From positions 1-21,097 of IMG/VR virus record IMGVR_UViG_3300017987_000421: a DNA stretch of 21,097 bases; one strand, written 5' to 3'. Positions 1 to 19,616 of this stretch are shown here, in pieces. The translations under genes and the position numbers were made by a program. Positions within the stretch are counted from its first letter, which is position 1; every line of letters starts with the position of its first letter. Source of the DNA: a virus. The notes below the pieces were generated by a model. The model searched no databases and was not told where the DNA came from. It was given only the letters and a program-made list of their open reading frames with translations.

Positions 1-1083
1 ACCACCATTAAGCCACATGATTGTGTCTTGGTCTTTTGGTTGAACTGTGTCTGCAACTGAAGGATTTGATCTTGCTCTGAGATAGTTTGAACCTTGGAGA
101 AGTTCATCTACAAAAATGTTTCTGTTGTAACCATCAAGCTTGTTTTCTTGACGAGAACAAACGTAGGTTTCGACAGGAGTCGATTGGTTTGAAAATTTAT
201 AAATAGAAACAAGGAATGCACCTTCTTCTTTTACATCATCAGGATAGGTGTCGTAGGTCTTAACTGTGAAACCAATTTTATCGTTCCACTCACCTTGATT
301 CGCACCGAAGAAAAGAAGTGATTCATCAGTTGAATCAACTTCAGTAACACCTTGAGTGGTTGTTGAAATGGTGAAACCAGTCGTGCCTGAGTCCACTGCA
401 TCGGTAACGTCACCAGCATTGTCGTTAGTGACTGTTATTTTCGATGCGTCAATTGCAACAGTAACTAGAGCAGAAGAAGATTCAATTGCTGTCTTGAGTG
501 CTGCTGCTACGTTGTCAGCAGTTTCATCGATTGCAATAGCGACTGGTATTGCTGTCTTCCCAGCCAAAGTGGGATCTGTTCCACCTGCATTGACATTGAA
601 CCATGCATAAAAAGTTCCAGCAGGAGTTGAAAACTCTAAATACTTATTGTTGAGATCACCTGATGAATCTGCTCGTGCAGTTATGTCTGTAACTTCGGCA
701 ACACCTGCAACATCTGGAGAAGAATCAAAAACAAATGCTGTTGGATCTGCAATTCCTGTCTGTAGTTGGTAGTTGTTTGTTGTGGAAGAAAGAGACTTCA
801 CAACTGCTCCACCGTACAAAGCATTTTTTGCTGCTCTTACTGCCCATAGCTTGTCAGACTTTTCAAGGAAAGCTAACGCTGAGAAGTAAGATACATCATA
901 ACCAACTTCAATCCTCTCATCGGGAGTCAGATACTTGAGCAGATCTGAGTCACTTGTAAGAAGAATCCTTTCATTAACTGCACCTTTTTTCGCAGGTATG
1001 GCGATTCCACCATAGACTCCAGCAAATGAGGGTACACGAGTTGAGAGATCAACCTCTCTCAATTTCACCTGTGGTGCTCCCAT
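1..1083 (-). CDS. Tail sheath protein, N-terminal part (runs off the window)
   Basis: This is the contractile sheath subunit that surrounds the tail tube. The reading frame is open from ATG at 1083 to the window edge, giving 361 residues with no stop; T4 gp18 is about 660 residues, so roughly the C-terminal half lies outside. The first 85 residues have the usual sheath start: VKLREVDLS, a Gly-rich loop (GVYGGIAIPAKKG), a litS-D-L segment, then a helix and LWAVRAAK. Residues about 125-250 look like the inserted beta-rich domain seen in many phage sheaths (FYAWFNV, then DETADNVAAALKTAI). The last visible residues, TIMWLNGG, fit the conserved core. An AGGGAG site lies upstream of the ATG. It is the last gene of the structural run seen here and shows that the phage is a myovirus. 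Confidence 0.88.
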   Translation of the reverse strand, partial: MGAPQVKLREVDLSTRVPSFAGVYGGIAIPAKKGAVNERILLTSDSDLLKYLTPDERIEVGYDVSYFSALAFLEKSDKLWAVRAAKNALYGGAVVKSLSSTTNNYQLQTGIADPTAFVFDSSPDVAGVAEVTDITARADSSGDLNNKYLEFSTPAGTFYAWFNVNAGGTDPTLAGKTAIPVAIAIDETADNVAAALKTAIESSSALVTVAIDASKITVTNDNAGDVTDAVDSGTTGFTISTTTQGVTEVDSTDESLLFFGANQGEWNDKIGFTVKTYDTYPDDVKEEGAFLVSIYKFSNQSTPVETYVCSRQENKLDGYNRNIFVDELLQGSNYLRARSNPSVADTVQPKDQDTIMWLNGG

Positions 1084-1112
1084 TATTTTCTCCCTTCATA
1101 ATTGAATTTAAT

Positions 1113-1298
1113 TTATAGTTTTACGACACCGTTTGGAAGAGATCCAACAAGTTGCTTGTCTGCTACCTTAACCCGACCTCTCGGTGGTACGACCATTCCC
1201 ATTCCGTTGTAGGATACAACCACAGAATGATTAAGACTGGATTTCAAAAAACCAGCACCTCTCTCTTCTTGTTTCACTTCTTTCTTTTTCTTAGACAT
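1113..1298 (-). CDS. Small protein of unknown function upstream of the tail sheath
   Basis: This is a 61-residue product that I do not recognise. The N-terminus is very basic (MSKKKKEVKQEERG); the rest is beta-like and hydrophobic (HSVVVSYNGMGMVVPPRGRVKV). I chose the ATG at 1298 because it has a GAGG site five bases upstream; the frame stays open further back to 1343, but that start would lie inside the preceding gene. The gene sits between a possible tail-completion protein and the sheath, so a virion or assembly role is plausible by position only. The MSKK start is not the capsid-targeting leader found elsewhere in the window, because it lacks the hydrophobic and LxE part. Confidence 0.6.
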   Translation of the reverse strand: MSKKKKEVKQEERGAGFLKSSLNHSVVVSYNGMGMVVPPRGRVKVADKQLVGSLPNGVVKL

Positions 1299-1305
1299 CT
1301 TAACC

Positions 1306-1944
1306 TCACGATGTGATAGTTCTCTCTGAAAGAACTTGTCCATATACGGATTTAATTGCTGCGTTTATTTGCTCTATGACAGCACCTTCTCCTTCGAAAA
1401 GATAGAACACGCCACGAATGGTGACTGTTCCTGCTACTGTCTTGTAGTAATTTCCTTCGATGTTGAATGTAGTTTCATCAAGTGCTTTTGTGTAATCGAC
1501 CGAGTATTTGTATGTCTCTACATCTGGGATTTCACACTCAATGTATTTCTCTTGAGCAAGTGCTCTTTCCGCAAGATAGAAGATTTCAAATTTTTCCATC
1601 TCTACTGCTGACTCATTCACATAAAGAAATGGGATCTCAAGTTCTCCGAGTACCCATTTGTATTTGAGTCTTTGACCGTCAACAACTCCTGCTTGTGCAA
1701 CTGATGTCGATGCTCTCCCAGCTATTCCATGCTCAGTGTGTCTGAGTGTCATTCTTTTAAAAATGAATGCTGGGAGAAAAGGTTCTTCACCACCAGTGAG
1801 TTCCATCTCTGCTCTGTGGTTTTTTAAAGCAGTCTCATAGGATAGACCTTCATCGTAAACGTAATTGGTTCCTGCAAAGTGACTCTCTAAGTAATCGAGA
1901 AACTCTTTGAGAACTAACGCTACATTTGAAAGTACATATGCCAA
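1306..1944 (-). CDS. Putative tail completion / neck protein (TTG start)
   Basis: The product is 212 residues. The likely start is TTG at 1944, preceded by AAGGA seven bases upstream and lying just past the TAA of the leader gene before it; no ATG in this frame gives a comparable product. The N-terminus is helical (LSNVALVLKEFLDYLESHF). The middle is beta-rich with a segment like those of tail-terminator or neck subunits (LGELEIPFLYVNESAVEMEK, then FEIFYLAERALAQ). It lies between head-tail connector candidates and the sheath, where T4-like phages carry neck and tail-completion genes. The assignment rests on position and general look, not on a recognised domain; another small structural protein is equally possible. 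Confidence 0.5.
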   Translation of the reverse strand: MAYVLSNVALVLKEFLDYLESHFAGTNYVYDEGLSYETALKNHRAEMELTGGEEPFLPAFIFKRMTLRHTEHGIAGRASTSVAQAGVVDGQRLKYKWVLGELEIPFLYVNESAVEMEKFEIFYLAERALAQEKYIECEIPDVETYKYSVDYTKALDETTFNIEGNYYKTVAGTVTIRGVFYLFEGEGAVIEQINAAIKSVYGQVLSERTITS

Positions 1945-1947
1945 GGA

Positions 1948-2139
1948 TTAATCCTTAATGTAGTCAGATTGAATTAATGCTTTTCTCAAGAGATCCATAG
2001 TTTTGTAAATTGGCCCACCAGATCCAGATTCCGTTCCTGAGATGTCAGTCAACTTCATTAATGCATCTTCAATATGCTTTGCTGCTTCTATAGCTTCTTT
2101 TGGTTTCTTTGCTTCGAGAAGTTCACTTGCTTTGCTCAT
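1948..2139 (-). CDS. Isolated small protein with the MSKA capsid-targeting-like leader
   Basis: This is a 63-residue product starting MSKASELLE-AKK. The start at ATG 2139 is set by AAGGTG upstream and by the TAA of the previous gene one base before it (TAACATG); a longer reading to 2196 would run into that gene. The leader ends in L-L-E at residue 9, which fits an (L/I)xE prohead-protease site. The rest is a short helical protein with a Gly/Ser turn (ESGSGG). It is the only leader-bearing gene among the connector genes, away from the two large cassettes, so it may be a packaged protein inserted here or a neck component that shares the signal. The function of the body is unknown. Confidence 0.7.
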   Translation of the reverse strand: MSKASELLEAKKPKEAIEAAKHIEDALMKLTDISGTESGSGGPIYKTMDLLRKALIQSDYIKD

Positions 2140-2140
2140 G

Positions 2141-2545
2141 TTAATCACCTTTTGCTGATAGTTGATATCTGGAGAAGACATCTGTTGTTGTACCAAGTGC
2201 TTCTTTGCTTACAATCTTATATTTCCTGCGACGATTATCTGTGCTGTTAATTTCAAGTTCATCACCCACTCGAACTTCTGTACTGGTTGTGTAAAGAAAT
2301 CCTTCTTGAAACGCACCAGAACTCATTGCAGCAGTCGGGAAGAAGTCATCACCAGTTACAATCCCAGTGATCTCTGTTTCATCACCATACTCTTCACCTG
2401 CTTCAACACCATAGACAGATGTATGTTCATCTATCTTTGCATGACGAATGATCAGAGGTATCCCATGAATCCTTTCAAGGACTCGTAGATAAGACACATG
2501 CATCGTCTTGAGAGCAACTTCAATATTTTGATAGAGAGTAGACAT
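2141..2545 (-). CDS. Putative head closure (stopper-like) protein
   Basis: The product is 134 residues. It begins with a helix (MSTLYQNIEVALKTMHVSYLR). The middle is acidic and beta-rich (DETEITGIVTGDDFF). The C-terminal part (GDELEINSTD, then RRRKYKIVSKEALG and a last beta strand) follows the pattern of small beta-barrel head-closure or stopper proteins, in which a xDxLEI strand is followed by xYKIxxxxxxG. It sits three genes before the sheath and after the SWIM-like protein, a usual place for connector parts. The site AGGTG is only two bases from the ATG, so initiation may depend on coupling to the upstream gene, whose TAG ends five bases earlier. The family match is weak and inferred from shape and position. 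Confidence 0.5.
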   Translation of the reverse strand: MSTLYQNIEVALKTMHVSYLRVLERIHGIPLIIRHAKIDEHTSVYGVEAGEEYGDETEITGIVTGDDFFPTAAMSSGAFQEGFLYTTSTEVRVGDELEINSTDNRRRKYKIVSKEALGTTTDVFSRYQLSAKGD

Positions 2546-2550
2546 GACAC

Positions 2551-3279
2551 CTATCGCATAATCATTTTGGCCATTACTAGTGCTTCCATGAATTTCCAGA
2601 CATGCTTACAGATGCCTAATTCATTTGTCGGGTTTTTAAAACTCCGACCTTCTATTGCCCACTTACCATCTTTCGTTGTCTTCTCATCATCAGCAGTTGC
2701 TTTACGAATATTGTTTGATCCTAGTTCATGCATTGCATTCCAAGGAATCATTTTCATTCCCTTGACAGGAACTTTGTCTGCTCTGTTGCTGGGAGAAGTC
2801 TTTCGTTTGTATCGTTGCCATCGACCACCTGCAAGGTTTCCTGATTGTGCAAGTTGATATTCAAAATTGAATCTGAAATCTTCACAACCATGCTCACCAG
2901 CTTTTGCATGTGTGCCATCACTACCACACCGGACTCTGACATCATCTGAAGATAGACTTGGCTTTCTAACCCACACAGGAGACTTTCCAGAGTCTACTTT
3001 GGAAACCATTATCCATTCGCCATCGGTAGGTTTTGATTCTTGGAAATCCATTCCATTGAATCTTGCTACTACTAAATATTTATCAGTCTCTCCTTGAACC
3101 CATCCCATGAAGAGAAGAGACTTTGTGTTTCTGTTGTAAGATACTTCAAGTTTTTTTGTTGCTTTGATCTTGGAGTTACTAGAATAGTCTGCTTGAGATC
3201 TGGAACCTTTTTTGATAGGAGAACGAACTTTCTTAATACCGTCTAGGACAGCCTTGAATGGTGCAGGTTTTTTTGCCAT
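2551..3279 (-). CDS. SWIM-like zinc-binding virion protein (neck region)
   Basis: The product is 242 residues with a basic N-terminus (KKPAPFKAVLDGIKKV, then SPIKKGSRSQ). From about residue 70 it shows a beta strand series (LLFMGWVQ, YLVVARFNG), then VRVRCG, a Gly/His loop, HGCEDFRFNFEYQ, a KRKTSPSNR stretch, and near the C-terminus NPTNELGICKHVWKF. Cys residues in VRCG and GCEDF together with CKH near the end look like a SWIM-type zinc ligand set (C, C, CxH). Phage structural proteins with a C-PDF-R ... NP ... CKH pattern are known, usually without an assigned job. Its ATG follows directly on the TAG of the upstream gene in the same frame. I am fairly sure it is a real structural gene; zinc binding is inferred. 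Confidence 0.65.
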   Translation of the reverse strand: MAKKPAPFKAVLDGIKKVRSPIKKGSRSQADYSSNSKIKATKKLEVSYNRNTKSLLFMGWVQGETDKYLVVARFNGMDFQESKPTDGEWIMVSKVDSGKSPVWVRKPSLSSDDVRVRCGSDGTHAKAGEHGCEDFRFNFEYQLAQSGNLAGGRWQRYKRKTSPSNRADKVPVKGMKMIPWNAMHELGSNNIRKATADDEKTTKDGKWAIEGRSFKNPTNELGICKHVWKFMEALVMAKMIMR

Positions 3280-3960
3280 CTAGCCACCCCAACCAAGATA
3301 AAATTTATGATCTTCGTTATCAAGATTTTCCATTGTCTTTTCTTCAAGTGACTCACCATCAGAAATCATTTCAGATGCATCAAGTGCAAGTGGCATTCCT
3401 TCAAGAGTGAAAGCTCTTCTTTGTCTTCCTAGAATTTGTTGGAACTTTGCTCTTGCAAGATCGAAAAACAAATCATCATCGTCTTCAAGAATGTTTACTT
3501 CCCACTCTGTTTCACCAGAACTGTTTGTTGACTCAATAAGCTTGCGATACCAAGCAGCATGAACTTCATAGACACCACCTACAGGTACATAGAGTCTTTT
3601 GTTTTCAAACCTGATAGGGAAATTTTCTTTAACGATGTCTGATGTGTAATTTCTTCCTAGAGATTCTCTAAGATGATATGGAAGAACTCCCAGTAGCCTA
3701 ATTGGAGTTGCTCCAATGATGAACGAAGGTATTCCGTACTGAGTGCCATTCACAGTAAATGAATCATCAAACTCATGATAGTATCCCGAACTAACTTCAA
3801 TGTTGAAATGGTCATCTAAAGGAACGTATTTGTTATATACACCCAGTACGGACTTAATTAGATACCGAAACTTGTCAACGTCTAATTCAATCAAGTCAGG
3901 ATCAATTAAAAATTGACCTGACTCAACAATCACTCTTTTCCAGATGTCTCTGATTCTCAC
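3280..3960 (-). CDS. Putative head-tail connector / neck protein (GTG start)
   Basis: The product is 226 residues. The start is GTG at 3960 with GGGGAG six bases upstream. The N-terminal 50 residues are helical (IRDIWKRVIVESGQFL), followed by a mixed beta region with PxGGVYEVHAAWYRK. A C-terminal helix (FFDLARAKFQQILGRQRRAF) is followed by a small LEGMPLALDASEM segment and an acidic tail ending FYLGWGG. Two genes downstream of the capsid gene and before the stopper-like gene is where myoviruses keep connector or adaptor subunits, and the final long helix pair suits such a protein. I do not recognise a specific family. It ends with TAG immediately followed in frame by the ATG of the next gene. 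Confidence 0.55.
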   Translation of the reverse strand: MRIRDIWKRVIVESGQFLIDPDLIELDVDKFRYLIKSVLGVYNKYVPLDDHFNIEVSSGYYHEFDDSFTVNGTQYGIPSFIIGATPIRLLGVLPYHLRESLGRNYTSDIVKENFPIRFENKRLYVPVGGVYEVHAAWYRKLIESTNSSGETEWEVNILEDDDDLFFDLARAKFQQILGRQRRAFTLEGMPLALDASEMISDGESLEEKTMENLDNEDHKFYLGWGG

Positions 3961-3971
3961 GAGTGACTCCC

Positions 3972-4301
3972 CTACCTTCTACTTTTGCCTTTTTGTTTTG
4001 ACTGACCTTTAGGCTCTTCTTTTTTGACTTCGACTTTAGGCTCTTCTTTTTTGACTTCAACTTTCGGCTCTTCTTTTTTGACTTCGACTTTAGGCTCTTC
4101 CTTCGTTTCACTCATAACACCTTCACTCCACTCGATGAGTTTCATTTCGTGCATAGAGTTTATCGACTGGGAGAAAAGCATTGCGTCTTCTTTCGTCTTG
4201 AACTTATGAACAGCACCAACTTTTTCAAGGATGATTGGATCTGCTGCTCTAGTCTTATTCGGAAGAAGTTTCACATATCCAGCTTTACTTGTGATCTTCA
4301 T
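3972..4301 (-). CDS. Small protein with K/E-P-K-V repeat tail, after the capsid gene
   Basis: The product is 109 residues. The start at ATG 4301 has CGGAGA upstream; an earlier in-frame ATG at 4352 falls inside the terminator hairpin and is discarded. The N-terminal 60 residues look folded (KITSKAGYVKLL, then GAVHKFKTKEDAMLF). The C-terminal part is a tandem repeat of KVEVKKEEP (three and a half copies of nine residues) ending in a basic GQSKQKGKSRR. The head-like N-terminus may bind a virion partner while the charged repeat is flexible. It follows the capsid gene but is separated from it by a strong terminator, so it is probably made in lower amounts or from another promoter. A capsid-decoration or assembly role is possible but unproven. 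Confidence 0.65.
   Translation of the reverse strand: MKITSKAGYVKLLPNKTRAADPIILEKVGAVHKFKTKEDAMLFSQSINSMHEMKLIEWSEGVMSETKEEPKVEVKKEEPKVEVKKEEPKVEVKKEEPKGQSKQKGKSRR
4007..4101 (-). repeat. 27-bp tandem repeat, about 3.5 copies, inside a coding region
   Basis: Units begin at 4007, 4034, 4061 and a partial one at 4088. Each full unit is 27 bp and encodes nine residues (KVEVKKEEP phase). Copies differ at only one to three positions, so the array is recent or is kept uniform by slippage. The length is a multiple of three, so changes in copy number would keep the frame. Confidence 0.9.
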
Positions 4302-4325
4302 TTTTTTCTCCGATTGAATTTTGTA

Positions 4326-4355
4326 GAAAAGCTTGGGTAACGAATTACCCAAGCT
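4326..4355 (-). terminator. Intrinsic terminator after the major capsid gene (UUCG tetraloop)
   Basis: On the minus strand the arms AGCTTGGGTAA and TTACCCAAGCT form a perfect 11-bp stem (4330-4355) closed by TTCG, the very stable UUCG loop, followed by TTTTC. It lies about 30 bases past the capsid stop codon and ahead of the ribosome binding site of the next gene, so it should uncouple strong capsid expression from the genes downstream. Confidence 0.85.
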
Positions 4356-4383
4356 CCCAAGGATAGACTTTCAGAACATCAAC

Positions 4384-5823
4384 CTATGGCTTGGCACCTA
4401 AGTTGAGAGTGAACTTGGTTACGAAGTTGTCGTTCATAACTTTCATTCCTGCCCATACACCAGCCCACTTTTGATCACTCATTGGGTTTGGCCCAAGAGG
4501 AATGACTTCAGAAGTGACGAGTGGCATATAAGGACAATAGACCAATGCACCTTCCCAAGGATTTGATGGTCGCCATACACACAGTCCTGTCTTGCTGTCT
4601 AGAACAGCTTGCTCGTTAACACGAACGATGGTGATGCCGTTAAGCGTACCATAGATGTGAGAGCCAAGAGTTGTTCCATCAGAAAGTTTTGTGAAACCTG
4701 CGAGAGTTCCGATGACTGCTGCGAGTTCACGACCAACGATCATTGTGGAGATAACACCACGACCACCATTGCCAACCATGATTGCTTCTGCGTCTGCAAG
4801 AGAATCAAAGAAGGTGTCTTTGTGATCACGATAAGAGATTGCCGAAGGTGGAGTCTTGTACCAAATCGTTTCGCCTTTTGCTGCTGCAAGAAGTTTACGA
4901 ATGGCATCACCAGCGAGTTCTCTGTTGATCTCGACCGTCAGATCTGTGGATGCTGAACTTTCGATGCTTGTTCCAAAACGCTTACGCATTGAATAGTTTT
5001 GGAGTGCTCCCCAAACTGATTTCAGTGCATACACATACGCTTGAACAGTTGTGCTGTCATAGTATGTGTGGATCTGGGGAAGATCGTCTGCAAGTTCCAA
5101 GTTTTGTTGGTACTCAGCATAGACCTTTTTGTTTGCAGCAGGAGCTACTGCGAATGTCAAGGCAACAACGCCAGTGACATAGTTGACTGTACCTGACAGT
5201 CCGATTCCGAGAAGCTGACCGACTGTTCCATTAGAACCTTCAGCAGCACCAACGTCTTTACACCATACAGTGGCATCGTCTTCAACTGTGATCTTGAGAG
5301 TCTCAGATCTGATTGGTTTTGCTGCAAGAGTAAAACCATAAGTTGTTGTAGGTGTTCCACCAGTATCCGCACCTTCTTCACCAGAGATGAAGTTGGAAGA
5401 ATAACCTTCGGAAGTTTTGATTGTTGAACGTGGATCAACAAGAACGTCATTGGCAGTGTTGTTGCCTTTGGTGTCTGTTGCACGAACAGTCTTGTACCAG
5501 ACGATTCCCTTTTCTTCTTGGATCGGTTGTGTTGCTGCGATTGAACCAAGGATGCTTTGTCCTTGAACGGCAGTGATCACATTGAAACCGATAAGAGGAA
5601 GCTTACCGAGTTGGTTTGTGTTTCCATCTGCTTCACAGATTTCGACAAGATCTTTGAATTGGTTGAGTTGCTCACCCAATGCCCAAACGTCATAATGATC
5701 GATTCCACCTTTTGCTTTCGCATAAAGAGAACCTTCAAACATGTCCATCTGCTCACGATACTCATCGTAAACCTTTTCACTGTCTTGCTTAATCTTAGAC
5801 TCTTTCATGTCTATGTTGCTCAT
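4384..5823 (-). CDS. Major capsid protein, T4 gp23-like, with candidate cleavage at Glu64
   Basis: The product is 479 residues, close to the 521 of T4 gp23. It forms the icosahedral shell. The first 64 residues are charged and helical and end in L-V-E-I-C-E, followed by ADGN. An I-C-E site at residue 64 fits a T4-type prohead protease, and T4 gp23 itself loses 65 residues there, so the mature protein would start at Ala65. After it come a beta/helix region (GKLPLIGFNVITAVQGQSIL, then ATQPIQEEKGIVWYK), a long strand-rich middle domain, and a C-terminal part with GALVYCPYMPLV and MSDQKWAGVWAGMKV, typical of this fold. AAAGGA lies seven bases before the ATG. It is placed right after the protease-scaffold gene, as in T4. 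It ends with TAG, and 12 sense codons follow before TAA; I regard these as untranslated. Confidence 0.87.
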   Translation of the reverse strand: MSNIDMKESKIKQDSEKVYDEYREQMDMFEGSLYAKAKGGIDHYDVWALGEQLNQFKDLVEICEADGNTNQLGKLPLIGFNVITAVQGQSILGSIAATQPIQEEKGIVWYKTVRATDTKGNNTANDVLVDPRSTIKTSEGYSSNFISGEEGADTGGTPTTTYGFTLAAKPIRSETLKITVEDDATVWCKDVGAAEGSNGTVGQLLGIGLSGTVNYVTGVVALTFAVAPAANKKVYAEYQQNLELADDLPQIHTYYDSTTVQAYVYALKSVWGALQNYSMRKRFGTSIESSASTDLTVEINRELAGDAIRKLLAAAKGETIWYKTPPSAISYRDHKDTFFDSLADAEAIMVGNGGRGVISTMIVGRELAAVIGTLAGFTKLSDGTTLGSHIYGTLNGITIVRVNEQAVLDSKTGLCVWRPSNPWEGALVYCPYMPLVTSEVIPLGPNPMSDQKWAGVWAGMKVMNDNFVTKFTLNLGAKP

Positions 5824-5833
5824 ATGAATTCCT

Positions 5834-5871
5834 TTCGAGAAAACTTAGTTAAGTTAAGACAAGCTCTCGAA
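5834..5871 (-). promoter_or_regulatory. Nested inverted repeat in the leader of the capsid gene
   Basis: In the gap between scaffold and capsid genes, TTCGAGA and TCTCGAA (5834-5840 and 5865-5871) can pair, and between them lies a second perfect inverted repeat, AACTTA-GT-TAAGTT (5842-5855). The outer arm ends next to the ribosome binding site of the capsid gene. It could be an mRNA structure that sets capsid translation or protects a processed 5' end, or a protein-binding site. There is no T-run, so it is not an ordinary terminator. Confidence 0.4.
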
Positions 5872-5900
5872 TGTAGATCCCTGCCAGTTTACATTTCTTT

Positions 5901-6623
5901 TTAAGAAAGACTTTCCATAAGATTCTGGCCAGCAGTTCTTTCAAACATAGAAGACTTTTTGTTTTCTTCTTTTTTGTCATCACTGTTGTCAGACTTACGA
6001 AATTTGTTTCTGTATTTCTTTGACTCATTGAGGTCTTTGAAAAAGTTTCTGACTTTTTCTTCGTCACCAGCATAGATTTCTCTAATCGCATCTTCAGTGA
6101 CACCAAACTCTTCTGCAAGTTCTGTGATCTTTTTGTTGTCTTTCTCTGCGTTCTTTTCTTCCATAAATTTTTTCGTGAGATCAAATGCTTCAGAAATTTC
6201 TTCTGGAGTACCAAGATCTTTGTACTCTTCTTTGATCTTCTTTGTGAGGTCAAGTGCTTCATCGATTTCTTCTGGAGTTCCCAGAGGAATATATTGCTCG
6301 ATGAGTTCTTTGCCCATGTCGAGTGCTTCTTCAATCTCTTCAGCAGTGCCGAGATCTTTGAATGCTTCTCTTTCTTTTTTCGCAAGCTCAAGAGCTTCGT
6401 CAATCTCTTCAGCAGTGCCAAGAGGTTTGAATGCTTCAAGTGCTTTCTCTGCTTCTTCTAGCTTCTTCTTTGTTTCATCAAGAACAACAACTTGCTCACT
6501 GAGTTCAACATTCTTTGATTTGAGATCTTCATTCTCATTCAATGCTGCGGTCAGATCTGATTGCATCTTGCCATTTTCTTTCAAAGCTGATTCTAGAAGT
6601 TCACTGTTGTTCTTATCGCCCAT
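5901..6623 (-). CDS. Scaffold protein from an internal start within the protease gene
   Basis: Met213 of the protease-scaffold frame is preceded by AAGAAGGAG with eight bases to the ATG, the best ribosome binding site in this gene and better than that of the full-length product. Initiation here would give a 240-residue protein made only of the scaffold part: a coiled coil, the four 23-residue repeats and the C-terminal tail. It starts right after the low-complexity linker NDSNNNGRKEGDDD that ends the protease domain. The arrangement is like the lambda C/Nu3 pair, where free scaffold is made in excess over the protease fusion. That a separate scaffold is made is inferred from the site and the domain boundary. 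Confidence 0.7.
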   Translation of the reverse strand: MGDKNNSELLESALKENGKMQSDLTAALNENEDLKSKNVELSEQVVVLDETKKKLEEAEKALEAFKPLGTAEEIDEALELAKKEREAFKDLGTAEEIEEALDMGKELIEQYIPLGTPEEIDEALDLTKKIKEEYKDLGTPEEISEAFDLTKKFMEEKNAEKDNKKITELAEEFGVTEDAIREIYAGDEEKVRNFFKDLNESKKYRNKFRKSDNSDDKKEENKKSSMFERTAGQNLMESLS

Positions 6624-7259
6624 GTCGTCATCTCCTTCTTTTCTTCCATTGTTATTGGAATCATTAATTGACATATCTAAAAGTTTATCCATTGACTCTT
6701 TCAAGTTTTCTACCAGTGCAGGTTTTGCTTCTAAGAATCCTGCATCAAGTACAAAGTCGAAACCACTTAAATTAAACTCATCAGGATCGACACTGGGAAG
6801 ACCTTCATGAGTTCCTTTGAACTTTCCTGTTGCTCGTGACGAAGTGTGAAGTTGAACACCTGCACGAGAAAGAGTGTTCAGAATTTTACCAGCAGGTGTG
6901 TCAAGAATTAGTGCTTCGCCATATCCTTGTTTTCCTTTGTCGGTATTTCTCACTTCAAGTTTAGTCATCACATGAGAAACTTTTCCCTCAAGGATTGCTT
7001 GGTCATCAAGCTTTTGTTCGTGAGATATTGTACCTAGCATTCTTCTGCCTTGAAGTTTCTCTTGGATATCTTTTCTACCAAGCTGTTTCTCCCAGACAGT
7101 GTCGGAGTACCATCGTTTGTTTCTTGACTTTCCGTTGGGAACAAAGAACGTACCAGATAGCTTTCCGAGAACATGCTTACCGTCTACCTCACTATTTGAT
7201 GCTTCTTCGATCTTGAATTGCAGTTGCGGATCGAAGACATCATTGGTGAAATTATCCAT
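5901..7259 (-). CDS. Prohead protease (T4 gp21-like) continuous with scaffold
   Basis: The product is 452 residues from ATG 7259, chosen because GGAG lies six bases upstream; an ATG at 7271 is in frame but poorly spaced. Residues about 1-185 form a herpes-fold assembly protease of the T4 gp21 family: RNKRWYSDTVW, the His motif GTISHEQ (His80), then LHTSSRATG with the catalytic Ser at 140 or 141, and DFVLDAGFLEAKPAL. The rest is a charged coiled coil with four 23-residue repeats (280-371), followed by an ELAEEFGVTEDAIREIYAG segment and an S-MFERTAGQNLMESL tail. In T4 the protease and scaffold (gp21, gp22) are separate genes; here they share one frame. The enzyme should degrade the core, trim the capsid protein and cut the leaders of packaged proteins at (L/I)xE sites. 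Confidence 0.85.
   Translation of the reverse strand: MDNFTNDVFDPQLQFKIEEASNSEVDGKHVLGKLSGTFFVPNGKSRNKRWYSDTVWEKQLGRKDIQEKLQGRRMLGTISHEQKLDDQAILEGKVSHVMTKLEVRNTDKGKQGYGEALILDTPAGKILNTLSRAGVQLHTSSRATGKFKGTHEGLPSVDPDEFNLSGFDFVLDAGFLEAKPALVENLKESMDKLLDMSINDSNNNGRKEGDDDMGDKNNSELLESALKENGKMQSDLTAALNENEDLKSKNVELSEQVVVLDETKKKLEEAEKALEAFKPLGTAEEIDEALELAKKEREAFKDLGTAEEIEEALDMGKELIEQYIPLGTPEEIDEALDLTKKIKEEYKDLGTPEEISEAFDLTKKFMEEKNAEKDNKKITELAEEFGVTEDAIREIYAGDEEKVRNFFKDLNESKKYRNKFRKSDNSDDKKEENKKSSMFERTAGQNLMESLS
6147..6422 (-). repeat. Four tandem 69-bp units encoding 23-residue scaffold repeats
   Basis: Each unit encodes LGT-(A/P)-EEIxEAxxxxKK or a close variant, 23 residues long, repeated four times without gaps (69 bp each). 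The protein units are clearly related, while the DNA has drifted, so the duplication is older than the 27-bp array at 4007. Each unit looks like a helix pair, giving a regular rod. Changes in unit number could change scaffold length. Confidence 0.85.
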
Positions 7260-7293
7260 AGAGTTCTCCATTAAATAAATTTGTCCTATATAA

Positions 7294-7317
7294 GAAAAAC
7301 GATTTTAATTTCGTTTT
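7294..7317 (-). terminator. Possible weak terminator before the protease gene
   Basis: On the minus strand AAAACGA and TCGTTTT pair in a 7-bp stem around AATTAAAA, and the right arm ends in a T-run (TCGTTTTTC). The stem is AT-rich and weak. It sits in the 117-bp gap between the 258-residue protein and the protease start, one of the longer gaps between genes here. Confidence 0.35.
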
Positions 7318-7330
7318 CCAACATTTTTTT

Positions 7331-7358
7331 ATTAGAATTTGATGATTGAGACTGTCAG
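7331..7358 (-). promoter_or_regulatory. Possible sigma70-like promoter ahead of protease-scaffold-capsid
   Basis: On the minus strand CTGACA (7353-7358) and TCTAAT (7331-7336) each match five of six bases of the bacterial -35 and -10 boxes, with a 16-base spacer. It lies in the gap before the protease gene. The weak hairpin at 7294-7317 would then be in the 5' leader, which makes the call uncertain. No clear T4-type late promoter was seen in this gap. Confidence 0.25.
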
Positions 7359-7376
7359 ATTCTTGACTAGCTTTTG

Positions 7377-8153
7377 TTATTTTGAATTGCCAGTTTTATG
7401 TAGGTCAATCATAGCCTTTAGATTTTTGAACAAAAACTTGGTGTATTCAGTATGTTCCTCTGTGTATGATTTTTTGGCGAAATCTTTTTTAATTTCTTCC
7501 CAATAGTTTTCCACAATTGCAAAGTCGATTTTCTCATGAAGAGAAATGGAATTGCAAATTGCCTTTTCGCTTACAACTCTACACAAAAACTCTTCGTCTT
7601 CGTCTGTAAAGTCAAAAGATCCTAGCCAAAGTTTCTTCTCAAGTCTTTCAAGAAACGGAAGAAGTTCTTCCATAAACATCCGGTACTCGATCTCTTCAGT
7701 CAGTGGATGATAGAACTCCATCTCAACGAATGCATGAGTCTTGAGTGATGAAAGACCTTGCAGTACTTCAATGACTTCGTGAAGATCACTGTATGATTCA
7801 TTGGCACCTTGTCTCTCTTTGGCTCTTTCCTTTGTCAGACCGAAACCATCTCTATCATAAAGTCTTGTTGCAATGAACCTTCCAAGTGCTCTGTGGAATT
7901 TCTTCCCAGTAGTTGATCTGTGGAATCTTTTGATTCCTTTAAGCATTGCATACCTATCTTTTCTCCACTGTTGTTTTGTTCTCTGGGATCTTCGAAAGTT
8001 TTTAAGTGGAGAGATTAGAGATGATCTTCTCTTCAAAAACTCATCAAGCATTTCTTCATCTGGAGAGAAGTGTTCACTCACTTGATCAATCATGTCTGTG
8101 CGTTCTATTTCCATCAGGAATAGTTTCTTCTCATTGTCATTTGTGAATCTCAT
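7377..8153 (-). CDS. Helical protein of unknown function upstream of the prohead protease
   Basis: The product is 258 residues and I do not recognise it. It is charged and mainly helical: an N-terminal helix (EKKLFLMEIERTDMIDQVS), a very basic stretch around residues 43-95 (LKNFRRSQRTKQQWRKDRYA, then KRFHRSTTGKKFHRALGRF), and a long acidic helical C-terminal part (EELLPFLERLEKKLWLGSFD). A TAGGAG site precedes the ATG. There is no capsid-targeting-like leader. It sits between the second leader cassette and the protease, where T4 keeps small prohead-core genes (67, 68), so a core or assembly role is possible by position. The basic segment could contact DNA or the acidic scaffold. Confidence 0.65.
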   Translation of the reverse strand: MRFTNDNEKKLFLMEIERTDMIDQVSEHFSPDEEMLDEFLKRRSSLISPLKNFRRSQRTKQQWRKDRYAMLKGIKRFHRSTTGKKFHRALGRFIATRLYDRDGFGLTKERAKERQGANESYSDLHEVIEVLQGLSSLKTHAFVEMEFYHPLTEEIEYRMFMEELLPFLERLEKKLWLGSFDFTDEDEEFLCRVVSEKAICNSISLHEKIDFAIVENYWEEIKKDFAKKSYTEEHTEYTKFLFKNLKAMIDLHKTGNSK

Positions 8154-8161
8154 TTGTTCTC

Positions 8162-8383
8162 CTACAATCGTGAGAGTCTTTTTGCCATGTCAAGTAATCG
8201 TCTAGCTTCTGACTCTTGATCGTCTGCTAGCATCAAAGCTTGTGTAATGTAGTTCAATGCTGTGTTTATGTCTTGCTTCTCAACTGGATCGGAATGAGGA
8301 TACTTCGAACCAAGTCTAAAAGACATTCGTGCAAGTTGAACTTTCAAGTTCTTGCTGTTTGATTTTTTCTTTTCTTCTGCCAT
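8162..8383 (-). CDS. Small helical protein of unknown function
   Basis: The product is 73 residues: a basic start (MAEEKKKSNSKNLKVQLARM) followed by two predicted helices (INTALNYITQALMLADD, then ESEARRLLDMAKRLSRL). No leader of the MSKA type is present. GGGAGTGAG lies upstream of the ATG, and its TAG is part of the TAGGAG site of the next gene. It follows directly on the leader-bearing genes. Function unknown; the helical hairpin form suggests a small virion or assembly factor. Confidence 0.6.
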   Translation of the reverse strand: MAEEKKKSNSKNLKVQLARMSFRLGSKYPHSDPVEKQDINTALNYITQALMLADDQESEARRLLDMAKRLSRL

Positions 8384-8386
8384 TGG

Positions 8387-8629
8387 CTAACTCACTCCCA
8401 GTTTAACCATGTTTTTATTCCAAGTCTTTATCAGGTCAGATGCTTTTTCAATATGTCCTTTGGCTAACTTATGAAGGACAGAACTGTCTATTGCATCGAA
8501 AGAATGCATAGCATCATCCAAGTTTTGAATAGCTTTGTTGAGCTTTATTTGATTGCTCTTAATCATATCCCTGTCATGGTCATTGACTTCAATCTTCGCT
8601 TCGTCTAAAATTTCTTTTGCTTTGCTCAT
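8387..8629 (-). CDS. Leader-bearing small helical protein
   Basis: This is an 80-residue product beginning MSKAKEILDEAKIE. The leader holds L-D-E at residue 10 (and K-I-E at 14) as candidate prohead-protease sites. The body is all helix and mildly basic: LNKAIQNLDDAMHSFDAID, then HKLAKGHIEKASDLIKTW. The ATG overlaps the stop of the upstream gene (ATGA), and its ribosome binding site, GGGAG, is part of a CTGGGAGA octamer at 8636. Function of the body unknown; it is inferred to be packaged in the head. Confidence 0.75.
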   Translation of the reverse strand: MSKAKEILDEAKIEVNDHDRDMIKSNQIKLNKAIQNLDDAMHSFDAIDSSVLHKLAKGHIEKASDLIKTWNKNMVKLGVS

Positions 8630-8838
8630 GCTAGTTCTCCCAGACTTACTTCTTCTTTTTTGTTATTCACTGTGACCATCACAAGAATATCTTCGTCGCC
8701 TGTCTTTGGATCGTCAACTGAAATCACAACACCTTCTTGTCCTTTGAATCTAAAGTTATCTTTTTTGAAAGTAACTTTAGTTCCTTTCTTGAGTTGAGAT
8801 GCTTTGATCTCGTTTATTATGTTTTTTGCTTTGTTCAT
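8626..8838 (-). CDS. Leader-bearing small beta-barrel (SH3/KOW-like) protein
   Basis: This is a 70-residue product beginning MNKAKNIINE, a variant of the leader with I-N-E at residue 10. The body, LKKGTKVTFKKDNFRFKGQE followed by GVVISVDD and ILVMVTVNNKKEEVSLGELA, has the strand order of a KOW or SH3-like barrel (L-x-G-x-x-V, then EGVVxSVDD). Such domains often bind nucleic acid or protein. It shares ATGA overlaps on both sides. Both the packaging and the fold are inferred. Confidence 0.7.
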   Translation of the reverse strand: MNKAKNIINEIKASQLKKGTKVTFKKDNFRFKGQEGVVISVDDPKTGDEDILVMVTVNNKKEEVSLGELA

Positions 8839-9838: not shown

Positions 9839-10069
9839 CTATAAAAGATTTGCCATCTGTGATGTGAATGCTGATAGGTAAGGAAAGTTTTTTGCTACAT
9901 AGACACTGAGTTCTGCTGCCGTTGTTTTAGTATTGGTTTTCTTTGCCCACTTCTTAAACCCAGAAACAACTTCCTTCAGATCTGGTTTCTTCTTTGCTTT
10001 CAAGAAGACGTTGATCGTTCGTGCTGCTTTATTCATTGGATTTAGTGTGTGCTTTGGATCTGCACTCAT
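9839..10069 (-). CDS. Small basic protein of unknown function
   Basis: The product is 76 residues, starting at the ATG that overlaps the TGA of the upstream gene (ATGA). It is basic and helical (INVFLKAKKKPDLKEVVSG, then FKKWAKKTNTKTTAAELSVY). An internal Met12 begins MNKAARTI, faintly like the MNKAKNII leader at 8838, but it has no ribosome site of its own and I do not count it as a leader. Its TAG lies in the ribosome site of the membrane-protein gene. Function unknown. Confidence 0.6.
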   Translation of the reverse strand: MSADPKHTLNPMNKAARTINVFLKAKKKPDLKEVVSGFKKWAKKTNTKTTAAELSVYVAKNFPYLSAFTSQMANLL

Positions 10070-10785
10070 CGTCTATATTTCCCACCGACTACGTTACGAC
10101 CACCAGAGATTTTCTGCATCTTATTTAGCTTCGGACGTTTTACTGTCTTCGCAATTCGCATCGATCTCTTTCTCTTTCGATTGATCTGACCTTTCTTTGC
10201 TTTTCTCTTTCGTGCTGCTTTTCTAAATCCTGCTTTTTGTTTCGCAGTTAGACGAGCAACTCTTTTTCTTTTGACGATAGGAATTCTGACTCGCTTACCA
10301 CCACGAACCACTGTGACCATTCGTGCTTCGTTCTTTGTTGGATATTCTTTTTCTTCGTAATCAATATCTCCACCTTGAAAGATAGTCATCATGGTTGTCT
10401 TGTTCATCCAAGAAAGATCCATGAGATTTACATAAACACCAAGAGAAGTTTTTATCAGTGGTGGTGCTTGTGGGGATAGATCAACAATGATTGATTCTTC
10501 TTGCTCACCATCTTCTTCTGCATCATGAAGGATCATTGCTTCTGCCGAGTGAGTTTCTTCATCGAAGTAGAAAGCAACTGCCATCTCATCACCTTCAGAG
10601 TCGATGAAATAAACAGTTTGCACACCTTCATAGTCAACTTCAACTTCGTCACATGAAACACCTTCAAGACCAAGTGAGTTAAACTTCTGGTTGAACTGTT
10701 TGACCACCGTACTCGTATTGATGTGAGTTAGAACAGGATCTGACAGTGCCATGATCTGTTCTTTTATCTCTTTAGCTTTTGACAT
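10066..10785 (-). CDS. Leader-bearing protein with histone-like basic C-terminal tail
   Basis: The product is 239 residues beginning MSKAKEIKEQI, with I-K-E at residue 9 as a candidate cleavage site. Residues about 45-105 are acidic (DEVEVDYEG, FIDSEGDEMAVAFYFDEE, DAEEDGEQEE). Residues 161-239 are extremely rich in Arg and Lys (RIPIVKRKRVARLTAKQKAG, then RKAARKRKAKKGQ, NRKRKRSMRIAKTVKRPK). Similar Lys/Arg tails occur in phage proteins thought to contact packaged DNA. With the leader, the simplest reading is an internal head protein whose tail binds genome DNA and whose acidic half shields it before packaging or contacts the scaffold. AAGGAG precedes the ATG. That it binds DNA is inferred from composition. 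Confidence 0.75.
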   Translation of the reverse strand: MSKAKEIKEQIMALSDPVLTHINTSTVVKQFNQKFNSLGLEGVSCDEVEVDYEGVQTVYFIDSEGDEMAVAFYFDEETHSAEAMILHDAEEDGEQEESIIVDLSPQAPPLIKTSLGVYVNLMDLSWMNKTTMMTIFQGGDIDYEEKEYPTKNEARMVTVVRGGKRVRIPIVKRKRVARLTAKQKAGFRKAARKRKAKKGQINRKRKRSMRIAKTVKRPKLNKMQKISGGRNVVGGKYRR

Positions 10786-12170: not shown

Positions 12171-12647
12171 TTAACTCTTCTTGATTTTATAGATCTCGAA
12201 ACCGTTTTCCTTGTGAAGAGATTCGGCACCGAGTGTTACATTTCTTTGATATGTTCCCTTAGAGGTTTCACCTTGCTTCTCAATGTCTCGTCTGACCACG
12301 ATAAACGCTTCACCACCGGACTTTAACTTCTTCCTGATTCCTGACATCACCGAAGCTTCCTTCTCTTTAGGGAGAGTGTTTAAGACATACTGACACAGTA
12401 TCTTGTCGTAGGTCTTCTCTGGCATCTCTGGGAAGGTAGCAGGATCATATTTATCCCAGCCATTTTTATTAGCGTCAGATCCTTTTCCACAACCGTAGTC
12501 AAGAGTGTTTCCACCTTTTGAGAGATGACCATTTTCTTTTAACCATCTCACTGGTGCTGATTCTGTGGATCTTGAGATAGCAGTCTTAGCAGACTTGTCT
12601 TCATCTGCACCTTCGATGATTGAAATTATTTCTCTTGCTTTACTCAT
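12171..12647 (-). CDS. Leader-bearing SAM-dependent methyltransferase-like protein
   Basis: The product is 158 residues beginning MSKAREIISIIE-GAD, with I-I-E at residue 12 as the candidate cleavage site. The body is a short class I methyltransferase: motif I LDYGCGKG (49-56), a motif II-like acidic YDPA (67-70), motif IV region YDKILCQYVLNTLP (80-93), and LKSGGEAFIVVRRD (108-121). It is short for the fold but holds all the SAM-binding elements. What it methylates is not visible; the D-x-GCG-K-G-D and QYVLN blocks recall methyltransferases near DNA-modification systems. An enzyme carrying the leader would be carried in the virion and injected with the DNA. AGGAG lies ten bases upstream. Confidence 0.8.
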   Translation of the reverse strand: MSKAREIISIIEGADEDKSAKTAISRSTESAPVRWLKENGHLSKGGNTLDYGCGKGSDANKNGWDKYDPATFPEMPEKTYDKILCQYVLNTLPKEKEASVMSGIRKKLKSGGEAFIVVRRDIEKQGETSKGTYQRNVTLGAESLHKENGFEIYKIKKS

Positions 12648-16872: not shown

Positions 16873-17088
16873 TTACTTGTGAAATTGTTCGAACGGACAT
16901 CTGCCTGATGGTGTCGGTGTCATTCCAGTACTAACTCCATCATCCCAACTCAAACCACAAGTACCACATGTAACTTTGTCTTTTGCTTTCTCTCCATCTT
17001 TCAATGGCTAAACTTCGTAGTCTTTTGGGATATCACTAAGTTTTAATTTCTTCTCAAGTAAATCTATCACTTCTTTTGCTTTACTCAT
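16873..17088 (-). pseudogene. Leader-bearing zinc-ribbon-like gene broken or recoded by an in-frame amber codon
   Basis: From ATG 17088 the frame reads MSKAKEVIDLLE-KKLK, then LSDIPKDYEV, then TAG at 17008-17010, and continues in the same frame for 44 sense codons to TAA at 16873. The part after TAG reads PLKDGEKAKDKVTCGTCG, then LSWDDGVSTG, then PTPSGRCPFEQFHK. The C-x2-C ... R-C-P-F-E-x-F-H pattern resembles a small zinc-ribbon-like protein that I recall as common in phages, where a DYxPL...GxxA...TCGTCG order is usual. So one 71-residue gene is split by a single TAG. With termination only a 26-residue leader peptide is made. Several other genes here end in TAG, so genome-wide recoding is unlikely; a recent mutation, a suppressor host, or programmed readthrough remain. 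An AAGGA site precedes the ATG. Confidence 0.8.
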
Positions 17089-18549: not shown

Positions 18550-19275
18550 CTAATTAACTCTGTACCCAAAGAAGTCACCCATCTCAACTTCTTCTCCATC
18601 ATAACTATTGAGAAAATGTCCACGACCATCTGCTCTCTCTGCTTCTGAAACAAACTCATCAAAGTCTGGGAGAAGGTTCATAAGGTCTTGGTTTCCACTC
18701 TCATACTTCTCTTGGTAGCTTTTGACCAACTCTTCAAGATTCATCCCAGTGTTGAGATAAATGATTTCTTCTTTATCTTCGATCTCAATTTCTTCTTCGG
18801 TGTCTTCATCATAGTAGGTAGACTCAAGACCTAGATTCTCAATCACAGAATCTTCAGTGATATGCCAAAGAAGAAAACTTGTGTTGAATGCCCACAGAGA
18901 TTCAGCAATATAATCTTTAAGTTTCTCATCTGCTTCATCATCCGTTAAGACTTCCCACTCTTCTCCATCTGCTTCAAAAGCGTACCCATTGTTTTCTACT
19001 TCTTCAGGATCTACTTTTAGATACTTGGCAAGTGCTTTCATTTTCTCTTCGTCAGATGCTTCACACATTCCTTCGAAGAACTTCTTCCAAAAAGATTTAC
19101 CTTGTTTCTTCTTTGCTGCTTTGGCATCGAAAGCTTGTTTGGTTTTCTTTGGCTTTGACTTCTTAAACTTCTTCATCATCTTTTTGATCTTCTTGAACGA
19201 AGGAAGTTTGAACTCATTAAGTTCTGTCCTGTGTTCATTGATCATGTCGATTATTTCAACTGCTCTTGTTGTCAT
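18550..19275 (-). CDS. Variant-leader protein of a phage-wide family with DGRGHF motif
   Basis: The product is 241 residues. The start MTTRAVEIIDMINE-HRT differs from MSKA but keeps the helix and I-N-E at residue 14, so I count it as a divergent leader. Residues 23-70 are very basic (PSFKKIKKMMKKFKKSKPKK). The rest is acidic: DEEKMKALAKYLKVDPEEVE, then WEVLTDDEADEKLKDYIAES, LWAFNTSFLLWHI, an EDTEEEIEIEDKEEI run, and ADGRGHFLNSYDGEEVEMGD ending GYRVN. The L-T-D-x-E-A-D, ESLWAF and DGRGHF..YDGEE blocks match a protein type I know from many phages without a function. The basic N-terminus may be an added module. GGGAG precedes the ATG. Confidence 0.78.
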   Translation of the reverse strand: MTTRAVEIIDMINEHRTELNEFKLPSFKKIKKMMKKFKKSKPKKTKQAFDAKAAKKKQGKSFWKKFFEGMCEASDEEKMKALAKYLKVDPEEVENNGYAFEADGEEWEVLTDDEADEKLKDYIAESLWAFNTSFLLWHITEDSVIENLGLESTYYDEDTEEEIEIEDKEEIIYLNTGMNLEELVKSYQEKYESGNQDLMNLLPDFDEFVSEAERADGRGHFLNSYDGEEVEMGDFFGYRVN

Positions 19276-19616
19276 TTTATGCTCCCTACTTTAATCCATC
19301 TTCCATCCCAAGGTTCAGATTTCCCATCAACTTTTAATATTTGTGTTCCCTTATTCTTTGAGACTCTAGCAGTAATACCGAGCATGGAAAGAATACCATT
19401 TATTCTTTCTTTTGTTGTTGGAGTATCCCAACCACTATCAGTAATTGAAACTTCTCCGTTATCAACTTTCACGATCTCATTTCCATGAAGCCAGACAGAC
19501 TTACCATCAGTTTCTGTGTTTGCAATTTTCTTCTTCTTTCCTTTCTTCAATGCTGATGCAATATCATCAGTAACCTTTCTGGCCATTTCTGTTATAATCT
19601 CTGTTGCTTTTGACAT
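19272..19616 (-). CDS. Leader-bearing protein with LHG / TTKERIN motif
   Basis: The product is 114 residues beginning MSKATEIITE-MAR; I-T-E at residue 10 is the candidate site. A basic linker (LKKGKKKKIANTETDGK) leads to a compact beta unit: SVWLHGNEIVKVDNGEVSIT, then DSGWDTPTTKERINGILSML, and a C-terminal strand pair ending PWDGRWIKVGSIK. The order LHG-N-x-I, D-S-G-W-x-T-x-TTK-x-R-x-N recalls a small protein family frequent in phages, unknown in function. The stop overlaps the start of the next gene (ATGA). Confidence 0.75.
   Translation of the reverse strand: MSKATEIITEMARKVTDDIASALKKGKKKKIANTETDGKSVWLHGNEIVKVDNGEVSITDSGWDTPTTKERINGILSMLGITARVSKNKGTQILKVDGKSEPWDGRWIKVGSIK

Follow-up and report, generated by a model that had tools for sequence, protein, structure and literature searches.

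The TAG-bearing gene and the leader genes around it

The window analysed here, a 21,097-base virus record representing a fragment of a phage genome, contains a minus-strand ORF (17088→16873) which is interrupted by a TAG codon (Table 1). From an ATG that is preceded by its own Shine-Dalgarno-like GGAAGGAAA, 26 codons are read before the TAG (MSKAKEVIDLLEKKLKLSDIPKDYEV), and a further 44, among them those for the peptide VTCGTCGLSWDDGVSTGMTPTPSGR, separate the TAG from a terminal TAA (PLKDGEKAKDKVTCGTCGLSWDDGVSTGMTPTPSGRCPFEQFHK). The original prediction, which gave no strand, described a leader-bearing gene split by a stop, and the TAG does lie in frame at codon 27. This gene is flanked by that for the large terminase on one side and by a series of small genes on the other.

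Table 1. Positions of the features discussed in the text, numbered along the window.
Feature	Position	Strand	Remarks
Ancestral reading frame, complete, 71 codons + TAA; TAG at codon 27	16873-17088	-	capsid-targeting-like leader + zinc-ribbon-like domain
In-frame TAG, codon 27	17010-17008	-	next codon CCA; Gln/Arg/Lys/Val in homologues
Leader MSKAKEVIDLLE	17053-17088	-	common to ~19 window genes; LLE fits T4 gp21-type L/I-x-E cleavage motif
TTG, two codons past TAG, possible weak restart site	17002-17004	-	without clear Shine-Dalgarno sequence
Conserved domain IP-x2-[FYW]-x-V-[Q/K/R]-P...C-x2-CG...WDD...TP-x-P...RCPFE-x2-H	16876-17034	-	TAG inside domain
Prohead protease, Peptidase_S77, T4 gp21 family	5901-7271	-	candidate enzyme for leader removal
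Gp23-like major capsid protein	4384-5823	-	gene ends in TAG

Variants of the leader, of the form MSKAKEIIxLLE or MSKAxEIIxxL/I-x-E, open approximately 19 otherwise unrelated minus-strand genes between 1948 and 20786. An L/I-x-E motif occurs within the first 18 residues in 17 of these 19 genes, versus 4/18 other genes and a background of 20% (20 genes were flagged as leader-bearing, one of them a false positive, such that 17/20 becomes 17/19). In T4, gp21 cuts after L/I-x-E, removing capsid-targeting sequences of 10-19 residues from internal proteins (PMC9026906). The S77 prohead protease of the window (PF03420, 32.3 bits, cut-off 27) is encoded in the same cluster as the gp23-like capsid protein. 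By analogy with T4, the shared leader is likely to be a capsid-targeting propeptide, and the genes which carry it may encode head-cargo proteins, with packaging and cleavage both putative.

The leader-bearing genes include one for a methyltransferase-like protein (12171-12647), and another (19272-19616) whose product matches PF23790 (Kyano_Gp96, E 7e-12), a domain family that takes its name from cyanophages. A different phage, represented by L098 (IMGVR_UViG_3300018018_000001, positions 1-8702) and L099 (IMGVR_UViG_3300038425_000200), carries a separate array of roughly a dozen genes with leaders of the same type as in the window (MSKAKEIIKLINEQ, MNKAKKMLNLLEQG, MSRAKEIIGLVEEE and others); no S77 match was detectable in that phage, and the zinc-ribbon gene had no match in L098. 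The window leader gene at 18550-19275 is 36% identical to a leaderless copy in L046 (6823-7155), and since that copy sits directly upstream of the L046 zinc-ribbon gene, these two cargo genes may move together.

Homology across the stop codon

Downstream of the TAG, the frame codes for a conserved zinc-ribbon-like domain (C-x2-C…CPFE-x2-H), which matches phrog_15177 (E=5e-14) and, by tblastn, the Thioalkalivibrio plasmid protein WP_013006482.1 (E=4e-15, 66% over 44 aa). Domain matches extend to 44 phage records, with 57 homologous viral loci. Membership of phrog_15177 is indicated both by the significant profile match and by the presence of all of the invariant C-x2-C, W-D, CPFE and H residues, and with these matches the post-TAG segment is not a chance open frame. 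Homology starts before the TAG, where SDIPKDYEV aligns with SEDIPDDFEV; relatives have IP-x2-[FYW]-x-V ahead of the TAG column and P-[LI] behind it, and the column itself has an invariant Val on one side and an almost invariant Pro on the other. As the residues just before the TAG share this homology, the two halves belong to a single ancestral protein whose domain contains the stop, in keeping with the single coherent protein originally proposed. In an AlphaFold model with the TAG read as Gln (mean pLDDT 80, pTM 0.62), the residues flanking the stop fall within the best-predicted part (pLDDT about 88 over residues 21-50). Sequence and fold searches of the PDB with this protein returned no significant match, and a Pfam search with the domain returned none. 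Elsewhere, in L059 (~10001-10138), the zinc-ribbon module is located early in an open frame of 489 residues in which SRKTAG-like motifs recur; this frame resembles a polyprotein with cleavage sites repeated along it.

Aligning homologues at the TAG site, a check that accompanied the original prediction, revealed a sense codon in 22/22 homologous loci having the motif (18 distinct sequences). Gln is encoded in 11 loci, Arg in 7, Lys in 3 and Val in 1 (CAG 7, CAA 4, AAG 3, CGN 6, AGA 1, GTC 1), and neither TAG nor any other stop occupies the column in any of the 22. The column is variable, yet Gln, Arg or Lys occupies it in nearly every case, and the CAG or AAG codon of 10/22 loci is a single substitution from TAG. 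Given that no locus among the 22 carries TAG, readthrough is not a feature of the zinc-ribbon-like family. Peptide, terminase and portal scans, together with a degenerate DNA pattern extending over the TAG, found no second strain spanning the site, and the gene had no match in the one record searched of the Rhizobium phage RHph_Y65 group, which contains the nearest named phages.

TAG is otherwise an ordinary stop in this phage. The 38 called genes end in TAA (16), TGA (13) or TAG (9), and the capsid gene is among the last, as the original prediction held; capsid homology to Rhizobium phage capsids extends to residue 473/479. No TAG occurs in frame within the other genes of the window (about 6,340 codons). 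Wholesale recoding of TAG is ruled out by the nine genes ending in TAG and the single in-frame instance, and the earlier view that this is not simple recoding therefore stands. Within 8162-8629, the leader gene at 8387-8629 ends in TAG-CCA-ATG, directly in frame with the next gene; the junction (at 8387) resembles the TAG-CCA-TTG examined here, probably by chance, and was rejected as a similar case because the next gene starts from an ATG and GGGAG of its own, and no homologue joins both.

The segment beyond the TAG has also kept its family character. Against a profile of 18 homologues from which the window gene was left out, the post-TAG part scored 96.1 bits, while homologues in leave-one-out tests scored 74.8 to 94.6, and all family-invariant residues are intact (P21, V26, C41, C44, W48, C64, P65, F66, E67, H70 and others), consistent with the original impression that this part still looks selected. 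Simulated neutral decay cost approximately 2 bits per random substitution (about 8 bits for four), so that the 134 bases, if untranslated, could have accumulated only a few changes; by this simulation, any loss of selection after the TAG would be limited to roughly 0.03-0.05 substitutions per site, a bound which says 'recent or still translated' without separating the two.

A probable nonsense allele and its alternatives

We consider that the TAG is probably a recent nonsense allele, likely a segregating loss-of-function variant, in a head-cargo gene; of the options raised originally, a very recent mutation is the best supported, given the sense codon present at this position in all homologues. 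The intact gene would encode a small head-cargo protein, consisting of an N-terminal capsid-targeting propeptide (a helix, then L/I-x-E) and the zinc-ribbon-like domain, with the propeptide probably removed by the S77 prohead protease of the phage. A single substitution would have converted a sense codon (for Gln or Lys, judging from the homologues) to TAG, whereupon most ribosomes would halt after 26 residues, severing the leader from its cargo and leaving the domain unpackaged. The cargo gene bearing the TAG is probably dispensable. A capsid scan identified L103 (IMGVR_UViG_3300017989_000752, sample 3300017989), which is 99.945% identical to window positions 1-7290, an overlap that ends short of the TAG site; 4 of 7,290 sites differ, all of them synonymous, and there are no indels, suggesting that the differences are real strain variation with few base errors. 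At this diversity, chance alone would supply about 0.4 nonsense variants over 21 kb prior to selection, and one in a small accessory gene thus requires no special mechanism. Two points temper the nonsense reading: maintained readthrough would leave an identical, intact downstream sequence, and a suppressor tRNA could sit in the rest of the phage genome.

An assembly or sequencing error, with a sense codon in the natural genome, is an unlikely explanation; although a single base of one contig is at stake and the sequence after the TAG is wholly intact, the base error rate looks low, judging by the four synonymous differences and the lack of indels across the L103 overlap. It is improbable that an amber suppressor tRNA, from the host or the unseen phage genome, reads the TAG as an amino acid, perhaps Gln, with some efficiency to yield the full protein. 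Among residues at the column Gln is the most frequent, and phages with TAG-to-Gln suppression are known (PMC10607447), but recoded phages have TAG in many genes (41/147 ORFs in phAss-1; PMC10607447), rather than once alongside nine TAG stops, and no tRNA was found in the 21-kb window or in L103.

Programmed readthrough peculiar to this lineage, yielding a short leader peptide along with a little of the complete cargo protein, seems to us very unlikely. A C follows the TAG, the domain is intact, the gene is preceded by a good ribosome-binding site of its own, and no other instance of the leader fusion is known, such that leaderless homologues free of TAG are not conclusive. Nevertheless, neither line of inquiry bearing on this original option gave it positive support: the TAG is not conserved (0/22 homologous loci), and the 91 bases around and after it fold no better than shuffles (z=+0.57). 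The context is also CCAUUG, not CARYYA, the readthrough motif of plant viruses. We regard with equal scepticism a two-product scheme, not among the options raised originally, in which translation stops at the TAG and restarts at the TTG two codons on, giving a zinc-ribbon protein that has no leader and remains in the cell. The TAG-CCA-TTG spacing is favourable and other phages have leaderless homologues, but a restart would remove the conserved IPxDFxV part of the domain, and the TTG lacks a clear Shine-Dalgarno sequence. Least credible of all is that a leaky amber between capsid-targeting leader and cargo domain sets the cargo dose in the head, with mostly bare leader and little packaged protein; readthrough, if real, would constitute a novel means of setting the dose of packaged proteins in a phage head. 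As a probable nonsense allele in a cargo gene that the phage can likely do without, the TAG cautions against inferring readthrough from one metagenomic contig.

Comparison with known systems

The same zinc-ribbon-like domain, at 46-66% identity, is found in phrog_15177, in hypothetical proteins of Gordonia phages (as their C-terminal domain) and in WP_013006482.1; unlike the window gene, these have neither leader nor in-frame stop. Code-15 phages (TAG=Gln) such as phAss-1 likewise have TAG at columns where relatives have Gln, whereas here the in-frame TAG is single, and TAG is a regular stop. Prokaryotic genes with in-frame stop codons offer a parallel, in that a single stop interrupts an otherwise constrained gene, and a survey of bacterial genomes found such stops to be mostly short-lived, roughly like SNPs (PMC7918605); in contrast to those genes, the window gene is known from one sequence only.

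The leader array, with its T4 gp21-like L/I-x-E, is of greater interest than the TAG. As with the T4 internal proteins (IPI-IPIII and Alt, whose capsid-targeting sequences are cleaved by gp21), a short N-terminal segment is common to otherwise unrelated small proteins, the L/I-x-E motif is present, and a gp21-family protease and a gp23-like capsid protein are encoded in the window cluster. The window proteins differ from those of T4 in that their packaging and cleavage are predicted only, one member is cut by a TAG, the leader sequence is different, and carriers number about 19 in 21 kb. This array of approximately 19 genes, which has a counterpart in a quite different 181-kb contig, may provide a sequence tag with which to list phage head cargo computationally.
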